From: Elusimicrobiota bacterium
GTDB lineage: Bacteria; Elusimicrobiota; Elusimicrobia; UBA1565; UBA9628
Assembly: GCA_028717525.1 (NCBI GenBank)
Contig: JAQUNT010000030.1
Location: 1 to 11,227 of the forward strand
DNA length: 11,227 nucleotides
Reading direction: 5' to 3'
Both the position numbers and the translations under genes were made by a program. Shown one piece after another: positions 2,966-8,432 of the stretch. The notes beneath the pieces are model-generated. The model did no database searches and was not told the DNA's origin. It worked only from the letters and a program-made list of their open reading frames with translations. Within the stretch, counting starts at the first letter, position 1, and the number at the start of each line of letters is the position of its first letter.

Positions 2966-3246
2966 CCTACGCCAGGGCCCGGAGCGCGGCAGAAGCGGCG
3001 GTGCAGCATGGGGATGAGCAGCTGGCAGGAAGCGTGGAACGCGGTCAGGCCCAGCAGAAGCAGGAAGCTCTGCCGCCAGACGCAGTAGGAGAGATAGAGG
3101 AACCAGGACGCGGCCGGTATCCCCGATGGGCCGCGTCCCAGCCGGTTGCGCTTGAGCCAGGCATACAGGGACCAGAGGTAGAGCAGCAGACCCAGGCCCA
3201 AGGCGATGGGCATGGTCACGGCGAGGAGCTTCTGGACCGCGTTCAT
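2962..3246 (-). CDS. Small membrane protein, candidate immunity protein
   Basis: A 94-residue hydrophobic protein starting MNAVQKLLAV. Likely membrane segments are residues 6-30, about 43-58 and 60-80, separated by a basic loop (LKRNRLGRGP, 31-40) containing a GPSGIP motif (39-44). The ATG at 3246 overlaps the TGA of the upstream secreted-protein gene (ATGA), and its own TGA overlaps the next ATG the same way, so it is the middle gene of a tightly coupled operon. The frame stays open upstream, but that extension would lie inside the upstream gene and reads as arginine/proline-rich nonsense. No family is recognised with certainty. Small membrane proteins with a GPSxIP-type loop directly after RHS-like C-terminal domains are, from memory, often immunity candidates; this is inference from position and shape only. 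Confidence 0.82.
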   Translation of the reverse strand: MNAVQKLLAVTMPIALGLGLLLYLWSLYAWLKRNRLGRGPSGIPAASWFLYLSYCVWRQSFLLLLGLTAFHASCQLLIPMLHRRFCRAPGPGVG

Positions 3247-4400
3247 AGCAGGGGTATGGTGGGGCCCGTGTAGACCCGCTGGCCCATCAGGCCCTTGAGC
3301 GTGCCGCCGATGCGCCCCTCCTCGGCGATGGGATAGCGCAGGAGCTTGCCGGAGACTTTCGCGCTGCCCGAGCCGAGGTAGCCGCGCCCGTACTTGGCCA
3401 GCAGCTCCGGGCCTCCGGCCTTGCACCAGTTCAGGGCTCCGCGCGCGCCCTGGCCCGTGCCCGCGATGACGAATTGGCCCGGCTTGAGGACCGCGGAGCC
3501 GTTCGCGGCCGCGGCCGGGGCCCAGCGCGTGACCGTCTGCACCCCCGCGGTCATGGGCTTGAGGATGCCGGCTCCGCCCAGGGCCAGGGAGTAGAGCAGC
3601 CCGGTCACCGTGCCGGCGCCGTAGGCGCCGGCTTTCCGGTCGGCCGGGTCCGTGCCCCCGTTGATCTTCTTGCGCACCCAGCCCGTGGCGCCGAAGGTCA
3701 GGGCGTCCCCGAAGCCCGCGCTGAAGTTGGAGGCCCGCTCCAGGTTCTTCGCGCCCACCCGTTCATCCACCCAGAGCAGGGCCCGGTCCAAGGTCGAGAG
3801 CTCCAAGGCCGGGCGCGAGACCGCAGGCGGAGACTTCACCGCCAAGGAGCGCAGCTTGGGGGAGTCTCCGGCCGGGGCGCGGCGGAAGGCGTCCAGAGCG
3901 GCCTGGCGTTCGTCCGGGGGCCTGGGCCGGAGCGCTGCCGTCCGGCCCCCGGCCGGCAGGCTTTCGGCCTTTTTGCGCTGGTCCAGGGCTTCGGCCAGGC
4001 GGGCCGCGCTGCGCAGGGACGAGGCCTGCTGGCTCTGGAAGGCCGCTCTTTGGGCCGCGAGCTTCTCGGCCGGGGGACCGGACGTTGCCGCGGCCTGCGC
4101 TCTCAGGCGGGGCCTGCCCCCCGGGGCGTAATGCTCCCTGAGCGCGGCGAGCTCAGCGCTTAGGCCCAGGCTCCGGGCCGCGGCAGCCACGCTGCCTAGG
4201 TAGGCCCGGACCTCAGCGGCCGAGGAGCAGGGCGCGGCGCAGCCCTCCTGGACCAGCCGGGCCTGGGCCTGGGCCGCGTAGGGCTGGCCCGGAAGATGGT
4301 TCCGGAACGAGGCTTGGGCCCGCGCCAAGGGCTCGTCCGGGCCCGCGGCCGCGGGGCCCGCGCAGGCGATCAGGAGGACGGCGAGGATGGAGGGGCGCAT
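3243..4400 (-). CDS. Secreted protein with RHS/polymorphic-toxin-like C-terminal domain
   Basis: A 385-residue exported protein. Residues 1-20 form a signal peptide (MRPSILAVLLIACAGPAAAG). The N-terminal part holds a close cysteine pair (GCAAPC), possibly a disulfide. Residues about 90-195 are alanine/arginine/glutamine-rich and probably helical. Near residues 226-275 comes SAGFGDALTFGATGWVRKK and then KAGAYGAGTVTG, the pattern GFGDxLxFGxTxxxR plus KxGxYxxG that I know from the segment before the variable tip of RHS/polymorphic toxins. The end (NWCKAGGPE, VSGKLLRYP, KGLMGQRVYTGP) resembles the conserved tail of the same proteins. No RHS repeats are present, so the tail stands alone on a short exported protein. 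An ATG at 4409 is in frame, but the -10-like hexamer ends at 4410, so 4400 fits the promoter better. It is first in a three-gene operon. Toxic activity is unproven. Confidence 0.82.
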   Translation of the reverse strand: MRPSILAVLLIACAGPAAAGPDEPLARAQASFRNHLPGQPYAAQAQARLVQEGCAAPCSSAAEVRAYLGSVAAAARSLGLSAELAALREHYAPGGRPRLRAQAAATSGPPAEKLAAQRAAFQSQQASSLRSAARLAEALDQRKKAESLPAGGRTAALRPRPPDERQAALDAFRRAPAGDSPKLRSLAVKSPPAVSRPALELSTLDRALLWVDERVGAKNLERASNFSAGFGDALTFGATGWVRKKINGGTDPADRKAGAYGAGTVTGLLYSLALGGAGILKPMTAGVQTVTRWAPAAAANGSAVLKPGQFVIAGTGQGARGALNWCKAGGPELLAKYGRGYLGSGSAKVSGKLLRYPIAEEGRIGGTLKGLMGQRVYTGPTIPLL

Positions 4401-4409
4401 CCGGGACAT

Positions 4410-4438
4410 AGTATTGTCCCGTCGACGGGCTTTGTCAA
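4410..4438 (-). promoter_or_regulatory. Sigma-70-like promoter of the secreted-protein operon, with internal palindrome
   Basis: On the minus strand a perfect -35 hexamer TTGACA (4438-4433) is followed after exactly 17 bases by AATACT (4415-4410), matching four of six -10 bases. Transcription would start near 4403, so the ATG at 4400 would be nearly leaderless; no Shine-Dalgarno sequence is present. The spacer contains the perfect 12-base palindrome CCCGTCGACGGG (4418-4429), a possible operator. The second repeat copy begins five bases upstream of the -35 element. Confidence 0.6.
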
Positions 4439-4442
4439 GCGT

Positions 4443-4507
4443 GGTGCCACGGGTCAACTTTCTTAACTTCCCTGACGAGTAAGTTAAGAAAGTTAACCCC
4501 TGTCACC
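4443..4507. repeat. Hairpin repeat, copy 2 (REP-like)
   Basis: Arms 4443-4469 and 4481-4507 surround an 11-base loop. The arms match copy 1 (2006-2071) at 53 of 54 positions, the one difference being AACCCC for AACACC in the right arm, while the loops differ completely (CCCTGACGAGT versus ACTTCGGTCAGA). 24 of 27 arm positions are complementary, and three of the stem mismatches are the same in both copies. The copy lies between two genes on the same strand: it supplies the TGA stop of the ferritin-like gene and ends just upstream of the promoter of the next operon. Conserved arms with free loops indicate selection or recent copying of the stem. Confidence 0.88.
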
Positions 4508-5012
4508 CTAGATCCATCGGCTTGGGGAACCGGTCCGGCTGGCTGTCGAGGAGGTCGGAGAGCTGGACCAGATGGCTGCGCTCCTCTTCCAGGATCTTGT
4601 CCAGGATGCCGCTGCGGTCGCCGAGGACCAGGTCCTTCATGGACATGTAGGTGAAGATGGTGTCCTTCTCCACGGCCATGGCCAGCTCGAGCGCCTCCAG
4701 ATCGGACAGCACGGCGCTGGCCGAGGTCCGCGCCAGGCGGGTGCCCATGATGACGCTGCTGGCGGCCACGGCGCGCTGGAAGGGCGAGGCCTCGGCCGAG
4801 CAGGATTCGGCCGGCTGGCTGAGCTCGAGCGAGCGCAGGATCTTTTTGAACTCCGCGGCGTGCTCGATCTCCTGCCTGCGCAGGAGAAGCCAAGTCTGCT
4901 TGAGGCGCTCGTCTTTGGTCTCGCGCTCGAACCTCTCGTAGAGCGCCCGGCCGCCTTCTTCCATGGCGATGGCCAGCTTGATGAGGTCTGGCGCGCTGTA
5001 GGCGGTCTTCAA
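4503..5012 (-). CDS. Ferritin-like diiron protein (rubrerythrin-type four-helix bundle)
   Basis: A 169-residue soluble protein with the four-helix diiron pattern of the rubrerythrin/ferritin-like superfamily. The likely metal ligands lie on four helices: the MEEGG segment (E18/E19), ExxH at E48-H51 in RRQEIEHAAEF, E115 in AMAVEKDTIF, and ExxH at E144-H147 in EEERSHL. There is no C-terminal rubredoxin domain, so it is not a full rubrerythrin. Likely roles are peroxide or oxygen reduction, or iron handling, in the cytosol. The start is the TTG at 5012, supported by AGGAG at 5022-5018 with a five-base gap; the next in-frame ATG (residue 17) would cut off half of helix 1. It starts 15 bases after the stop of the large upstream gene, so the two are probably co-transcribed. 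Its final glycine codon straddles the repeat edge and its TGA stop lies inside copy 2. Confidence 0.88.
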   Translation of the reverse strand: MKTAYSAPDLIKLAIAMEEGGRALYERFERETKDERLKQTWLLLRRQEIEHAAEFKKILRSLELSQPAESCSAEASPFQRAVAASSVIMGTRLARTSASAVLSDLEALELAMAVEKDTIFTYMSMKDLVLGDRSGILDKILEEERSHLVQLSDLLDSQPDRFPKPMDLG

Positions 5013-5027: not shown

Positions 5028-8000
5028 CTAGGGCAGGCCGTAGATCTCGGTCATGTACTCGCCCAGGGTGCGCGCCTGGATGCGTCCGTCCTCGATGCGC
5101 AGGATCACGGTGTCCTGGTTCGCGCCCTGGCGCACCAGCCGGCCGATACTGGCGATGGGGGGCAGGTTCGTGTCGCTGCCGTAGTAGGCCACGGCCGAGA
5201 TGGACGGGGCGGCCAGCAGGCCCGCGGCGCGCTGCTGGAGCTTGAGCAGGCCGAAGGTGGCCTGGTCCGCCAGGCTCAGCGCGCGGCCGAGCCGGGCCCG
5301 CCGCCGGGCCGCCTTCTCCAGGGCCGCGGCCGCGGCGTCGAGGTCCTCGTACTCGCTGAAGCGCGGCGCCCACTGGAAGCGCACCGCGCTGCCGCTGCCG
5401 AAGCGGGAGAGGCGCACCGCGGCGGCCGAGGGCTTGGAGGAGAACTTGTCGGCGGAGCCCCGCGAGTAGGCCTTGCGCGCCTGCTCCATCAAGGAGGCCG
5501 AGGCCGCGGCCGAGGCGCCCGCCTGCGCGGCCGCCGGGCTCAGGGCCACTTCCAGGGACTTCACGGGCCGGTCCGTCAGGGAAGGCTGGTGCGCGGCGCC
5601 CATGTGATAGGGCAGCACGGAGCGCAAAGACCGGATGCGGATGCCGACGCGGCCCGTGGCCGGGTCGCGGGCCACGCTGACGATCTCGGTGTCCGGGCCG
5701 AAGAACTTGCCCGTGGCCAGCCAGCTCAGGCACTCGGCGCAGAGCTTCTTGAACTCGCCGCCGCTGTTGCTGACCACCACGGTCTTGACCGTGGTCCCGG
5801 CCGGCGCGTTGGCCAGGGCCGCGAGGATGGCGGTGCGCTCGGCGCAGAGGGTGATCTCGCGGCTGAGCTCCACGTTGGGCGCCGAGGCCCAGCGCCCGTC
5901 CGAGAGCTCCACGGCCGCGTGCACGTGGAAGTCAGAGAAGTTGGGCCGCTCCGCGGCCTCGTTCTGCACCGCGGTGTAGGTCTCCAGGGCCTTGGCCACG
6001 AGCAGCTTGAGCCGCTCCGGGGCCGGGACCTCGCCTGAGACGTCTACCTGGCGCAGGACCTTGGCCATGTCGCCGGTCGGCAGGGGGCCCGGGGTCCGGT
6101 CGGCCTCGATGGAAGAGCGGACCATCTTGAGGAAGAGCTCGGTCTGCGCCGCGTCGCCGCCGTTGGCCGTCCGCTCCGCGGCCAGCAGCTCGGCCAGGGC
6201 CCCGGGCAGGCGCTCGAGCTCCTGCGCGGTCATGAGGTTGACCACCACGTCGGCCTTCTCGCGCATGGGCAGGATGTTGGCGCGCTCGTTGACCAGCAGG
6301 TGCGCCCAGCCCTTGAGATTGTTGAAGACGCTGATACCGCGCTCGTTCTTGTCGCGCTTGAGGCGCCGGGCCAGGCGGATGGCGGCCGGCGCGGCCAGGT
6401 ACACGTTGAGGGTCTGGCGGCCCTTCACCGCGTCCAGGAACATCTGGTGCGAGGCGAAGATGGAGTCCACGATGAGAACGTCCTGCGGGCCGAGCTGGAG
6501 GAACACGCCGCTATCGAAGGTGGTGGGCCCGTCCATCACGTGCTTGGGCAGCTCTATGCGCCCGCCCGCGAGGAGAGTCTTGACGTCGTCGGCCGCGCGC
6601 TGCAGGTGCAGGGCCTCGGGCCGGTCGTAGTCGGGCCGGCCCTGCGGGTCGCGGGGGATGTCGCCCGCGGAGCGGAAGTAGAGGTCCACGGGGAAGACCT
6701 TCATGCGCTCGCCCAGGCTCTTGCGCATGGCCTCGGCCAAGGTGGACTTGCCCGCCGCGGTCGGGGCCTCTAAGAGGATAGCGCTGCGTCCGGGCAGGGC
6801 CTTGGCCAGCTCCTGGATGGAGGCCAGAGTCTGCTCCGTGTCCTGGCTCTGGTAGCGCATGTAGTCCGCGCCCTGGAATTCCTTGTCGATCAGGGCCCGC
6901 GCTTCCGCCAGGCCCGCGGCGGAGGGGTCCGCGGCCGCGGGCTGGGCGCCGCGGTGCAGGAGCGAGCCGACCGCTTCGGCGGCGCGCACGATGGGGCCGA
7001 GCACGGCGTTGGCCGCGCGGGGCATGTACACCTGGGCCAGGATGATGCTGCCCATGGTGACGGCGATGGCCGCGTTGAGGGCCCAGGACATGTCCCCGCC
7101 CATGAGCGCGGCGAAGAGGTGCATGAGGCTGCCGCCGATGAGCAGCAGCTTGGAGGCCACGGGCAGGTTCTGGGGGGCGCGGCCTTCGGACTTGTAGATG
7201 TTGTAGTTGTTCCGGATCTGGGGGGCGTCCAGGGAGCCCAGCAGGACCATGGCCGCGGTGAAGGCGACCTTCAGGCCGACGGAGAGGGGCAGGACCGCCT
7301 GCGACGCGATGAGCGCCACGCCCGCGGCCACGGCCGCGACCGTCGCCGCCGTGGCCTTGAGGGACCGCGAGTCCTTCTTGAAGTAGTTGAGCTGGCCGAC
7401 CACCAGGGCGCTCTCGGCCACGCCGGCGAAGTTGGCCAGCTGCCAGGCCAGGGCCGAGCCGTTTCCGACGGACACCAAGGACAGCAGGGTGGCGGCCGCG
7501 AACCAGATGAGCGGCCCGGCCAGGACCTGGTCCTTGGTCCCCTCGCGGCCGGTCTTGAAATTCTGGACGATCCAGGGCACGCCCAGCACCGAGAGGATGA
7601 CGGAGCCCGCGGCCGCGACCACTCCGACGTTGGCGGCCAGGATCGGCGCCGCGGCGGCGAGGCCGGCTGCGGCCAGGCCGGCGCCGAGCCAGCGCGCGGT
7701 CTGGCTCCGCCAGAAGGACTTGGCCGGGGCCTGGGCCTGGAGCGCGGGGACTTCAGAGGTCTTGGCGGAGAGGGGGGCGGCGGAAGTCTTGGCCAGAGGG
7801 GATCCGGTCCCTTTGAGGGCGGTGGAGAGCGCGGCCGCACCCTGGACCGCGATGGCGCCTGCCTCGGCCGCCGCGAGCTTTTCGTTGCGCAGCTCCGCGA
7901 AGACGGTCTCGGCCGCGCCCTTGGAGGATTCCGCCGGGGCCTTCTGGCTGAGGCCCGGCAGGCTGAGGCTCTCGGTGACCCGGGCCGAGGTCTTCTGGAT

Positions 8001-8432
8001 GTCGATCGGGCCGCCCTGGCCTTCGGACGCGGGCTGGGACTTGGAGAGGGCCTGCGCCGCAGGCGCAGGGGCCGGAGCGTTCTGGACGGCGGCCGCAGCG
8101 GTCTGGCCGGGCGCCGCGATCTGGCGGATGGCTGATGTGGGCAAGCCCATGACCGGGGCGGAGAAGGAGCGGTCCTGGACCTTGGGGACGTTGAGCGCGG
8201 CGTTGGGGCCGGAGAGGGCGGAGATCGGGGCCAAGGAGCCGGTCTGCAGGGAGGCGGGGCCGCCCAGCTTCATCTGGCCGATGGCTCCGGCCGGGCCGAG
8301 CTGGACCGGGACCGCGGTCTGGACCTTCTGGACGACGACCTCGTTGGCGGCCGCGTAGCCGGGGAGACCGAAGGAAAGGGCGAACTGGAGGGAGGCGAGC
8401 AGGACTGCGAGACCGCGCTTTGTTCCCGTCAT
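5028..8432 (-). CDS. Exported/membrane fusion: PQ-loop (SWEET-like) bundle, uridine-kinase-like domain, cytidine-deaminase-like domain
   Basis: A 1134-residue multidomain protein. Residues 1-28 look like a signal peptide or anchor; 30-245 are Ala/Pro/Gln/Ser-rich and low in complexity. Residues 268-470 form seven membrane segments in a 3-1-3 order, with PQ-loop positions at VPWIVQNFKTG (285-295) and DAPQIRNNYNIYKSEG (402-417); a further hydrophobic stretch at 248-267 may be an eighth. A P-loop kinase domain follows (about 540-740): Walker A APTAAGKST (556-564), VDLYF (582-586), DYDRPEAL (601-608) and LIVDSIFA (653-660), the layout of uridine kinase/phosphoribulokinase. Residues about 805-945 match cytidine deaminase: NVE (853-855), CAERTAI (863-869) and CAEC (898-901), giving zinc ligands C863, C898, C901 and catalytic E865. 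Residues 955-1134 are unrecognised. I infer nucleoside uptake coupled to phosphorylation and deamination. Whether both enzyme domains face the cytoplasm is unresolved. Confidence 0.82.
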   Translation of the reverse strand: MTGTKRGLAVLLASLQFALSFGLPGYAAANEVVVQKVQTAVPVQLGPAGAIGQMKLGGPASLQTGSLAPISALSGPNAALNVPKVQDRSFSAPVMGLPTSAIRQIAAPGQTAAAAVQNAPAPAPAAQALSKSQPASEGQGGPIDIQKTSARVTESLSLPGLSQKAPAESSKGAAETVFAELRNEKLAAAEAGAIAVQGAAALSTALKGTGSPLAKTSAAPLSAKTSEVPALQAQAPAKSFWRSQTARWLGAGLAAAGLAAAAPILAANVGVVAAAGSVILSVLGVPWIVQNFKTGREGTKDQVLAGPLIWFAAATLLSLVSVGNGSALAWQLANFAGVAESALVVGQLNYFKKDSRSLKATAATVAAVAAGVALIASQAVLPLSVGLKVAFTAAMVLLGSLDAPQIRNNYNIYKSEGRAPQNLPVASKLLLIGGSLMHLFAALMGGDMSWALNAAIAVTMGSIILAQVYMPRAANAVLGPIVRAAEAVGSLLHRGAQPAAADPSAAGLAEARALIDKEFQGADYMRYQSQDTEQTLASIQELAKALPGRSAILLEAPTAAGKSTLAEAMRKSLGERMKVFPVDLYFRSAGDIPRDPQGRPDYDRPEALHLQRAADDVKTLLAGGRIELPKHVMDGPTTFDSGVFLQLGPQDVLIVDSIFASHQMFLDAVKGRQTLNVYLAAPAAIRLARRLKRDKNERGISVFNNLKGWAHLLVNERANILPMREKADVVVNLMTAQELERLPGALAELLAAERTANGGDAAQTELFLKMVRSSIEADRTPGPLPTGDMAKVLRQVDVSGEVPAPERLKLLVAKALETYTAVQNEAAERPNFSDFHVHAAVELSDGRWASAPNVELSREITLCAERTAILAALANAPAGTTVKTVVVSNSGGEFKKLCAECLSWLATGKFFGPDTEIVSVARDPATGRVGIRIRSLRSVLPYHMGAAHQPSLTDRPVKSLEVALSPAAAQAGASAAASASLMEQARKAYSRGSADKFSSKPSAAAVRLSRFGSGSAVRFQWAPRFSEYEDLDAAAAALEKAARRRARLGRALSLADQATFGLLKLQQRAAGLLAAPSISAVAYYGSDTNLPPIASIGRLVRQGANQDTVILRIEDGRIQARTLGEYMTEIYGLP

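Follow-up and report, generated by a model that had tools for sequence, protein, structure and literature searches.

The window, that is, the whole stretch of 11,227 nucleotides analysed here, comes from contig JAQUNT010000030.1 of an Elusimicrobiota bacterium, a groundwater-type organism whose genome assembly (3.0 Mb, 562 contigs) is judged 79% complete. An open reading frame at 5028..8432 on the minus strand, to which all features of this gene given below belong, encodes a fusion polypeptide of 1134 residues, P0001, the single match within its own, incomplete genome. Its three principal parts are a seven-helix bundle of the SWEET/cystinosin type in 3-1-3 arrangement (residues 269-469; 7026..7628), a P-loop kinase of the uridine kinase fold (residues 547-739; 6216..6794) and a domain of the cytidine deaminase fold (residues 800-945; 5598..6035); a leader, a linker and an extra membrane helix precede them, and a conserved tail follows.

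An earlier note, made from the sequence alone, had read the gene as one such three-part polypeptide, and this is confirmed by full-length relatives with the same domain order in three other genomes (L002, L003, L004); the motif residues that the note had listed are also found in P0001 where it had placed them. An AlphaFold2 model of the full-length protein (47 sequences, mean predicted local distance difference test (pLDDT) 71.7, predicted template modelling score 0.46) bore out the three folds, as a Foldseek search with it returned the uridine kinase 3asz (E 1.6e-7), the cytidine deaminase 2fr5 (E 3.2e-3) and the SWEET 5ctg (E 4.7e-3). Profile searches, which the note had also proposed, gave a mixed outcome: PF00485 (kinase) scored above its cut-off, PF00383 (deaminase) below it, and PF04193 (bundle) did not match P0001. 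Chance motif matches are ruled out by the hidden Markov model and fold evidence, and an accidental joining of adjacent genes is rejected because L002, L003 and L004 share the domain order. Full-text literature searches found no paper on a PQ-loop or transmembrane carrier fused with a uridine kinase or cytidine deaminase, in agreement with the note, to which no described protein of this domain order was known; the profile A2 gave a single meaningless match against PDB sequences (E 0.8). Two relatives are already annotated 'uridine kinase/cytidine deaminase' in databases. The fusion is real and conserved, and apparently undescribed.

Membrane bundle and its orientation

In the predicted structure, the bundle consists of two three-helix repeats in the 3-1-3 order of the SWEET fold, and its Foldseek matches were SWEET, cystinosin and KDELR structures; a SWEET-type helix order within the repeats is suggested by these matches and was not read directly from the packing. 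The PQ-loop/SWEET fold is known for sugars, cystine and peptide signals. The landmark residues of the bundle are P286, P404-Q405, W330/N334, E340, D447 and W450/N453; among the 47 rows of the family (P0001 and 46 homologues), the Asn and Trp pairs, the prolines and the buried acid are kept in 46-47, and the Asn pair of helices 3 and 7, N334 and N453, in all 47. By position, this pair probably corresponds to Asn77/Asn197 of OsSWEET2b. P0001 therefore shares with the SWEET/SemiSWEET/cystinosin group (PF04193) the 3-1-3 fold, the PQ positions, the helix 3/7 Asn pair and the positive loops on the C-terminal side, but differs from it by an added N-terminal helix, the signal-peptide-like leader and linker, and the two enzymes behind the bundle. 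It also differs at the profile level, as neither P0001 nor anything else in its genome (G000) matched PF04193 at E<=1; relatives such as P0008 and P0040 exceed the cut-off of this family, and another, L020, matches SemiSWEET at E 0.03 only.

The bundle had been compared in the earlier note with PnuC, a likeness that we do not uphold. PF04973 (NMN_transporter, PnuC) matched neither P0001 (at E<=1) nor its genome, while 4 of 29 genomes have a match elsewhere; the fold groups with SWEET, cystinosin and KDELR; and the helix order, according to the part of PMC7162841 cited here, is 123 in PnuC and 132 in SWEET. The PnuC structure 4qtn was not among the fold matches of the bundle, an absence that does not by itself exclude a PnuC likeness. 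In the cited part of PMC7221760, PnuC admits nicotinamide riboside by facilitated diffusion and NadR traps it, the two being described as separate proteins whose direct interaction is without experimental evidence; the PnuC relatives PnuT, PnuX and PnuN are assigned, in the portion of PMC7749635 used, to thiamin, riboflavin and deoxynucleosides, for PnuN by prediction. A seven-helix carrier plus a riboside kinase is thus common to PnuC-NadR and P0001 as a works-like comparison at most.

As to orientation, when the helices are delimited as in the model, the loops on the kinase side average 2.8, 3.2, 3.9 and 4.1 Lys/Arg and the opposite loops 0, 0.1, 0 and 0.8; therefore, the kinase should be cytoplasmic. 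Since the models show eight helices, the first being the extra TM0 (residues 244-267; 7632..7703), and the stretch ahead of it carries 2.4 Lys/Arg, the linker should also lie inside. This Ala/Pro-rich linker (residues 31-243; 7704..8342) is mostly disordered, with pLDDT <50 over residues 22-142 and 185-238, and contains a short helical stretch (residues 144-187; 7872..8003) marked by the model and by conservation. The signal-peptide-like leader (residues 1-30; 8343..8432), whose Q16 is invariant among the 15 leaders aligned, looks instead like a sequence for secretion, and a leader similar to it (E 0.011) stands at the head of a subtilase of the same genome (PF00082 over cut-off).

Enzyme domains and the exchangeable third module

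The kinase matches PF00485 over residues 555-738 (E 3.4e-10, 40.5 bits vs a cut-off of 22). Against the NCBIfam uridine kinase profile it reaches E 4e-20 and 67.4, below the equivalog cut-off of 220.3, a cut-off that the best udk equivalog score over the 29 genomes (192.7, from a separate Udk) likewise does not attain. Its closest solved structure by sequence is the Thermus thermophilus uridine kinase (E 3.8e-17), and further fold matches are pantothenate kinase, phosphoribulokinase and a putative fructose transport kinase. With Udk/UCK it has in common the fold, the Walker A motif (APTAAGKST, residues 556-564; 6741..6767), arginines, and Asp583 and Asp603, which we take to be catalytic or ribose-binding; both Asp residues and the arginines are conserved across the family, and the kinase of P0044 has a 19-column gap around the catalytic-Asp region. 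It differs from Udk/UCK in its lower profile score, in the first Walker A Gly, which is replaced by Ala in 47/47 rows, and in the segment (residues 629-641; 6510..6548) that occupies the place of the motif presumed to read the base.

The deaminase domain matches PF00383 over residues 821-890 at E 0.015 (15.6, below the cut-off of 25) and the NCBIfam cytidine deaminase TIGR01354 at E 1.5e-10 (41.5, below 113.65); its closest solved structure by sequence is 7zob (E 0.0038). Shared with tetrameric cytidine deaminases are N-x-E, C-A-E (residues 863-865; 5838..5846), the expected zinc ligand and catalytic glutamate, C-x-x-C (CAEC, residues 898-901; 5730..5741), the expected second pair of zinc-ligand cysteines, and a C-terminal LLP-like segment; the three zinc-site Cys and the catalytic Glu are present in 9/9 rows with this type of module. 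The differences are KLCAECLS in place of PCGxCRQ, inserts, and a conserved tail of ~165 residues (residues 970-1134; 5031..5525). For these comparisons, six Cdd stretches were fetched, of which L090, having no open frame, was left out; five entered the profile comparison and three the alignment. The tail may be a degenerate second deaminase half, as in the E. coli-type deaminase: its helix-strand order, modelled at low confidence (block pLDDT 39-85), is near that of residues 800-945 with one early strand missing, and its profile score against the deaminase domain, 24.07, was not reached by any of 60 column shuffles (maximum 21.3), but the hhalign probability is 9%. No match of the tail to canonical Cdd was obtained by profile.

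The 46 homologues were found with residues 240-960 as the query, scoring being confined to the 7992 candidates with the most shared words, and all 47 rows keep the bundle and the kinase. What varies is the C-terminal part, which we labelled from search, alignment and domain matches: a tetramer-type deaminase in 9 rows, an adenylate kinase in 16, an E. coli-type deaminase in 2, a CdsA-like module in 1, none in 18, and a part cut short in 1, P0008, whose gene stops near a contig edge and for which a tail-matching piece of 21 residues lies on another contig. In a quick maximum-likelihood tree built from residues 245-755, the gain of the adenylate kinase is one event (Shimodaira-Hasegawa-like approximate likelihood ratio test 99), while the tetramer-type deaminase needs four changes, so that it must also have been lost or replaced. 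For the pair of E. coli-type deaminases, two changes are required, P0009 sitting inside the tetramer-type clade and P0042 on a long branch with odd composition; as these two modules are 45% identical, one of them may have been transferred from one lineage to another. The CdsA-like module (P0040, residues 799-1049) resembles phosphatidate cytidylyltransferase (PF01148, E 1.2e-51) and could have arisen by gene fusion or in the assembly. All named relatives come from Elusimicrobia or Elusimicrobiota assemblies, 1 of the 15 in a further listing being labelled just 'bacterium', and one scan of viral contigs gave no viral relative of the fusion.

The bundle profile matched 26 of 340 genomes of the phylum, one at E 8.2e-4 only. 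Besides kinase fusions, these include other arrangements: L017 and L020 each combine a leader, a HAD-IIB-like part and the bundle, the HAD part giving weak, sub-cut-off matches to the IMP-specific 5'-nucleotidase PF06437 and to HAD-IIB. L018 is a stand-alone bundle protein of 254 residues with six close relatives.

Mechanism and substrate

We propose, at somewhat short of an even chance, that the fusion is a membrane carrier to which metabolising enzymes are tethered on its cytoplasmic face. In this scheme, the SWEET/cystinosin-type bundle would let a nucleoside-like substrate through the inner membrane, the kinase behind it would phosphorylate this substrate and thereby block its exit, and the third module would complete the processing, by deamination of an amino base in the clade of P0001 and, in another clade, by a second phosphorylation through the adenylate kinase module. 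We favour a carrier with a trapping enzyme because fusions of the bundle also include adenylate kinase, two kinds of cytidine deaminase and a HAD phosphatase-like part. Of the pyrimidine nucleoside uptake, trapping and deamination machine suggested in the earlier note, this much is the preferred reading, and the PnuC and pyrimidine parts are not supported in that form.

The pyrimidine substrate is doubtful because the family lacks the complete base-reading motif of uridine kinases. In six aligned stand-alone uridine kinases, this segment reads P[IV]YDF[RK][AT][HY]TR; the motif PxYDFxx[HY]TR, for which the kinase alignment covered 14 of the 47 rows and which was then counted across all 47, occurs in none of them, its Tyr being kept in 5/47 and replaced by H or N in most. 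Moreover, the host already has a separate Udk match (187.5 bits), a separate Cdd over its cut-off (138.7 bits) and a CNT-type transporter, the latter (PF07662) being over cut-off in 29/29 genomes; ordinary pyrimidine salvage should therefore not need the fusion, which would be an extra, divergent system in this genome. In the six of the 29 genomes that have no Udk match (G013, G019, G023, G026, G028, G055), the match to the fusion is limited to the bundle part. The substrate is probably a nucleoside-like compound other than plain uridine or cytidine.

The alternative that ordinary uridine and cytidine are taken up, trapped and deaminated is unlikely on this evidence, to which the replacement of the Cdd signature PCGxCRQ adds, even though the enzyme folds are those of Udk and Cdd, the motif Tyr survives in a few rows, the fusion kinase is the sole Udk-like match in genome G016, and P0042 carries an E. 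coli-type Cdd above the curated NF006537 cut-off (187.1 vs 153). We also doubt that the bundle is a non-transporting membrane anchor for the enzymes or a ligand sensor, for which the KDEL receptor, of the same fold and a receptor rather than a transporter, offers a parallel: a plain anchor need not keep the Asn and Trp pairs, prolines and buried acid so strictly, several of the enzymes fused to the bundle are those of nucleotide metabolism, and stand-alone versions of the bundle exist. A carrier for a sugar or other non-nucleoside, with the kinase acting on that compound and deamination as a side activity, is very unlikely, since the kinase is followed by a cytidine deaminase at two positions of the tree and by adenylate kinase at a further one, although SWEETs are described as sugar carriers (in the cited part of PMC5742349), the kinase has the fold matches to non-nucleoside kinases given above, and the bundle-fused HAD parts match HAD-IIB, one of them weakly matching trehalose-phosphate phosphatase (E 0.22).

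Several observations weigh against the tethered carrier-kinase reading itself, besides the missing base-reading motif and the separate salvage genes. The pairing of bundle and kinase in the 46 relatives is partly a product of a query that contained both. The P0009 deaminase stays under the NF006537 cut-off (143.4 vs 153), and neither E. coli-type module reaches the TIGR01355 cut-off of 275. The kinase-side loops, besides being richer in Lys/Arg, are also longer (9-31 vs 5-7 residues), and on the model cleavage of the leader, eight membrane-spanning helices and a cytoplasmic kinase are mutually incompatible in parity and cannot all hold. One open reading frame, L019:168-3515, joins a DnaQ-like exonuclease, a HAD-like part (by eye), the PQ-loop bundle and an AmpH/beta-lactamase-like serine hydrolase, thus surrounding the bundle with exonuclease-like and serine-hydrolase-like parts that have no nucleoside link; bundles of this type and of the stand-alone L018 type weaken the idea that the bundle always serves nucleosides. 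Finally, with a simple home-made gene caller, the neighbours in 15 stretches gave no operon logic or pathway hint.

If the tethered carrier-kinase reading is correct, a carrier and a trapping kinase previously known as separate proteins occur here in one chain, so that a purified protein would allow direct tests of coupling and channelling; the family would offer a natural series of differing third enzymes on one carrier-kinase core, and a nucleoside-type substrate would be added to the range of the SWEET fold. A more speculative extension, which we consider improbable, is a single-chain, phosphorylation-driven uptake of nucleoside-like compounds that pass directly from the SWEET-fold carrier to the tethered kinase and then to the exchangeable third enzyme, comparable to group translocation but for nucleosides, in which the phosphatase-fronted relatives may reverse the process or might feed it by first dephosphorylating the substrate.

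Leader-bearing proteins and neighbouring genes

In genomes G000, G001 and G033, the leader profile was found at seven places, of which three belong to the fusion proteins. The other four are L077, a subtilase by Pfam, and L076, L078 and L079, which have no Pfam match, L076 and L079 reaching the end of their loci and hence being incomplete; these last three are membrane-like proteins, 'MFS-like' or 'PQ-like' by eye alone. Also by eye, a leader and a long Ala/Pro linker precede an MFS transporter (Pfam match) at L066:712-2652, and this leader-linker pair is likewise seen before the subtilase and the three membrane-like proteins.

Around the fusion gene, neighbour families were common only to loci of the same genus, except for clusters 7 and 18, each of which occurs at two loci of different genera. 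The region 3243-4457 of the window encodes a predicted protein of ~390-400 residues; it starts like a signal peptide, matches nothing in Pfam and is conserved in L059. Two further kinds of gene, represented in the window at 2057-2965 and 4503-5012, accompany the fusion: one of the ADP-ribosylglycohydrolase type, close by in three loci of the same genus (window, L059, L060), and, directly adjacent, a rubrerythrin-like one in two of these loci (window, L059).

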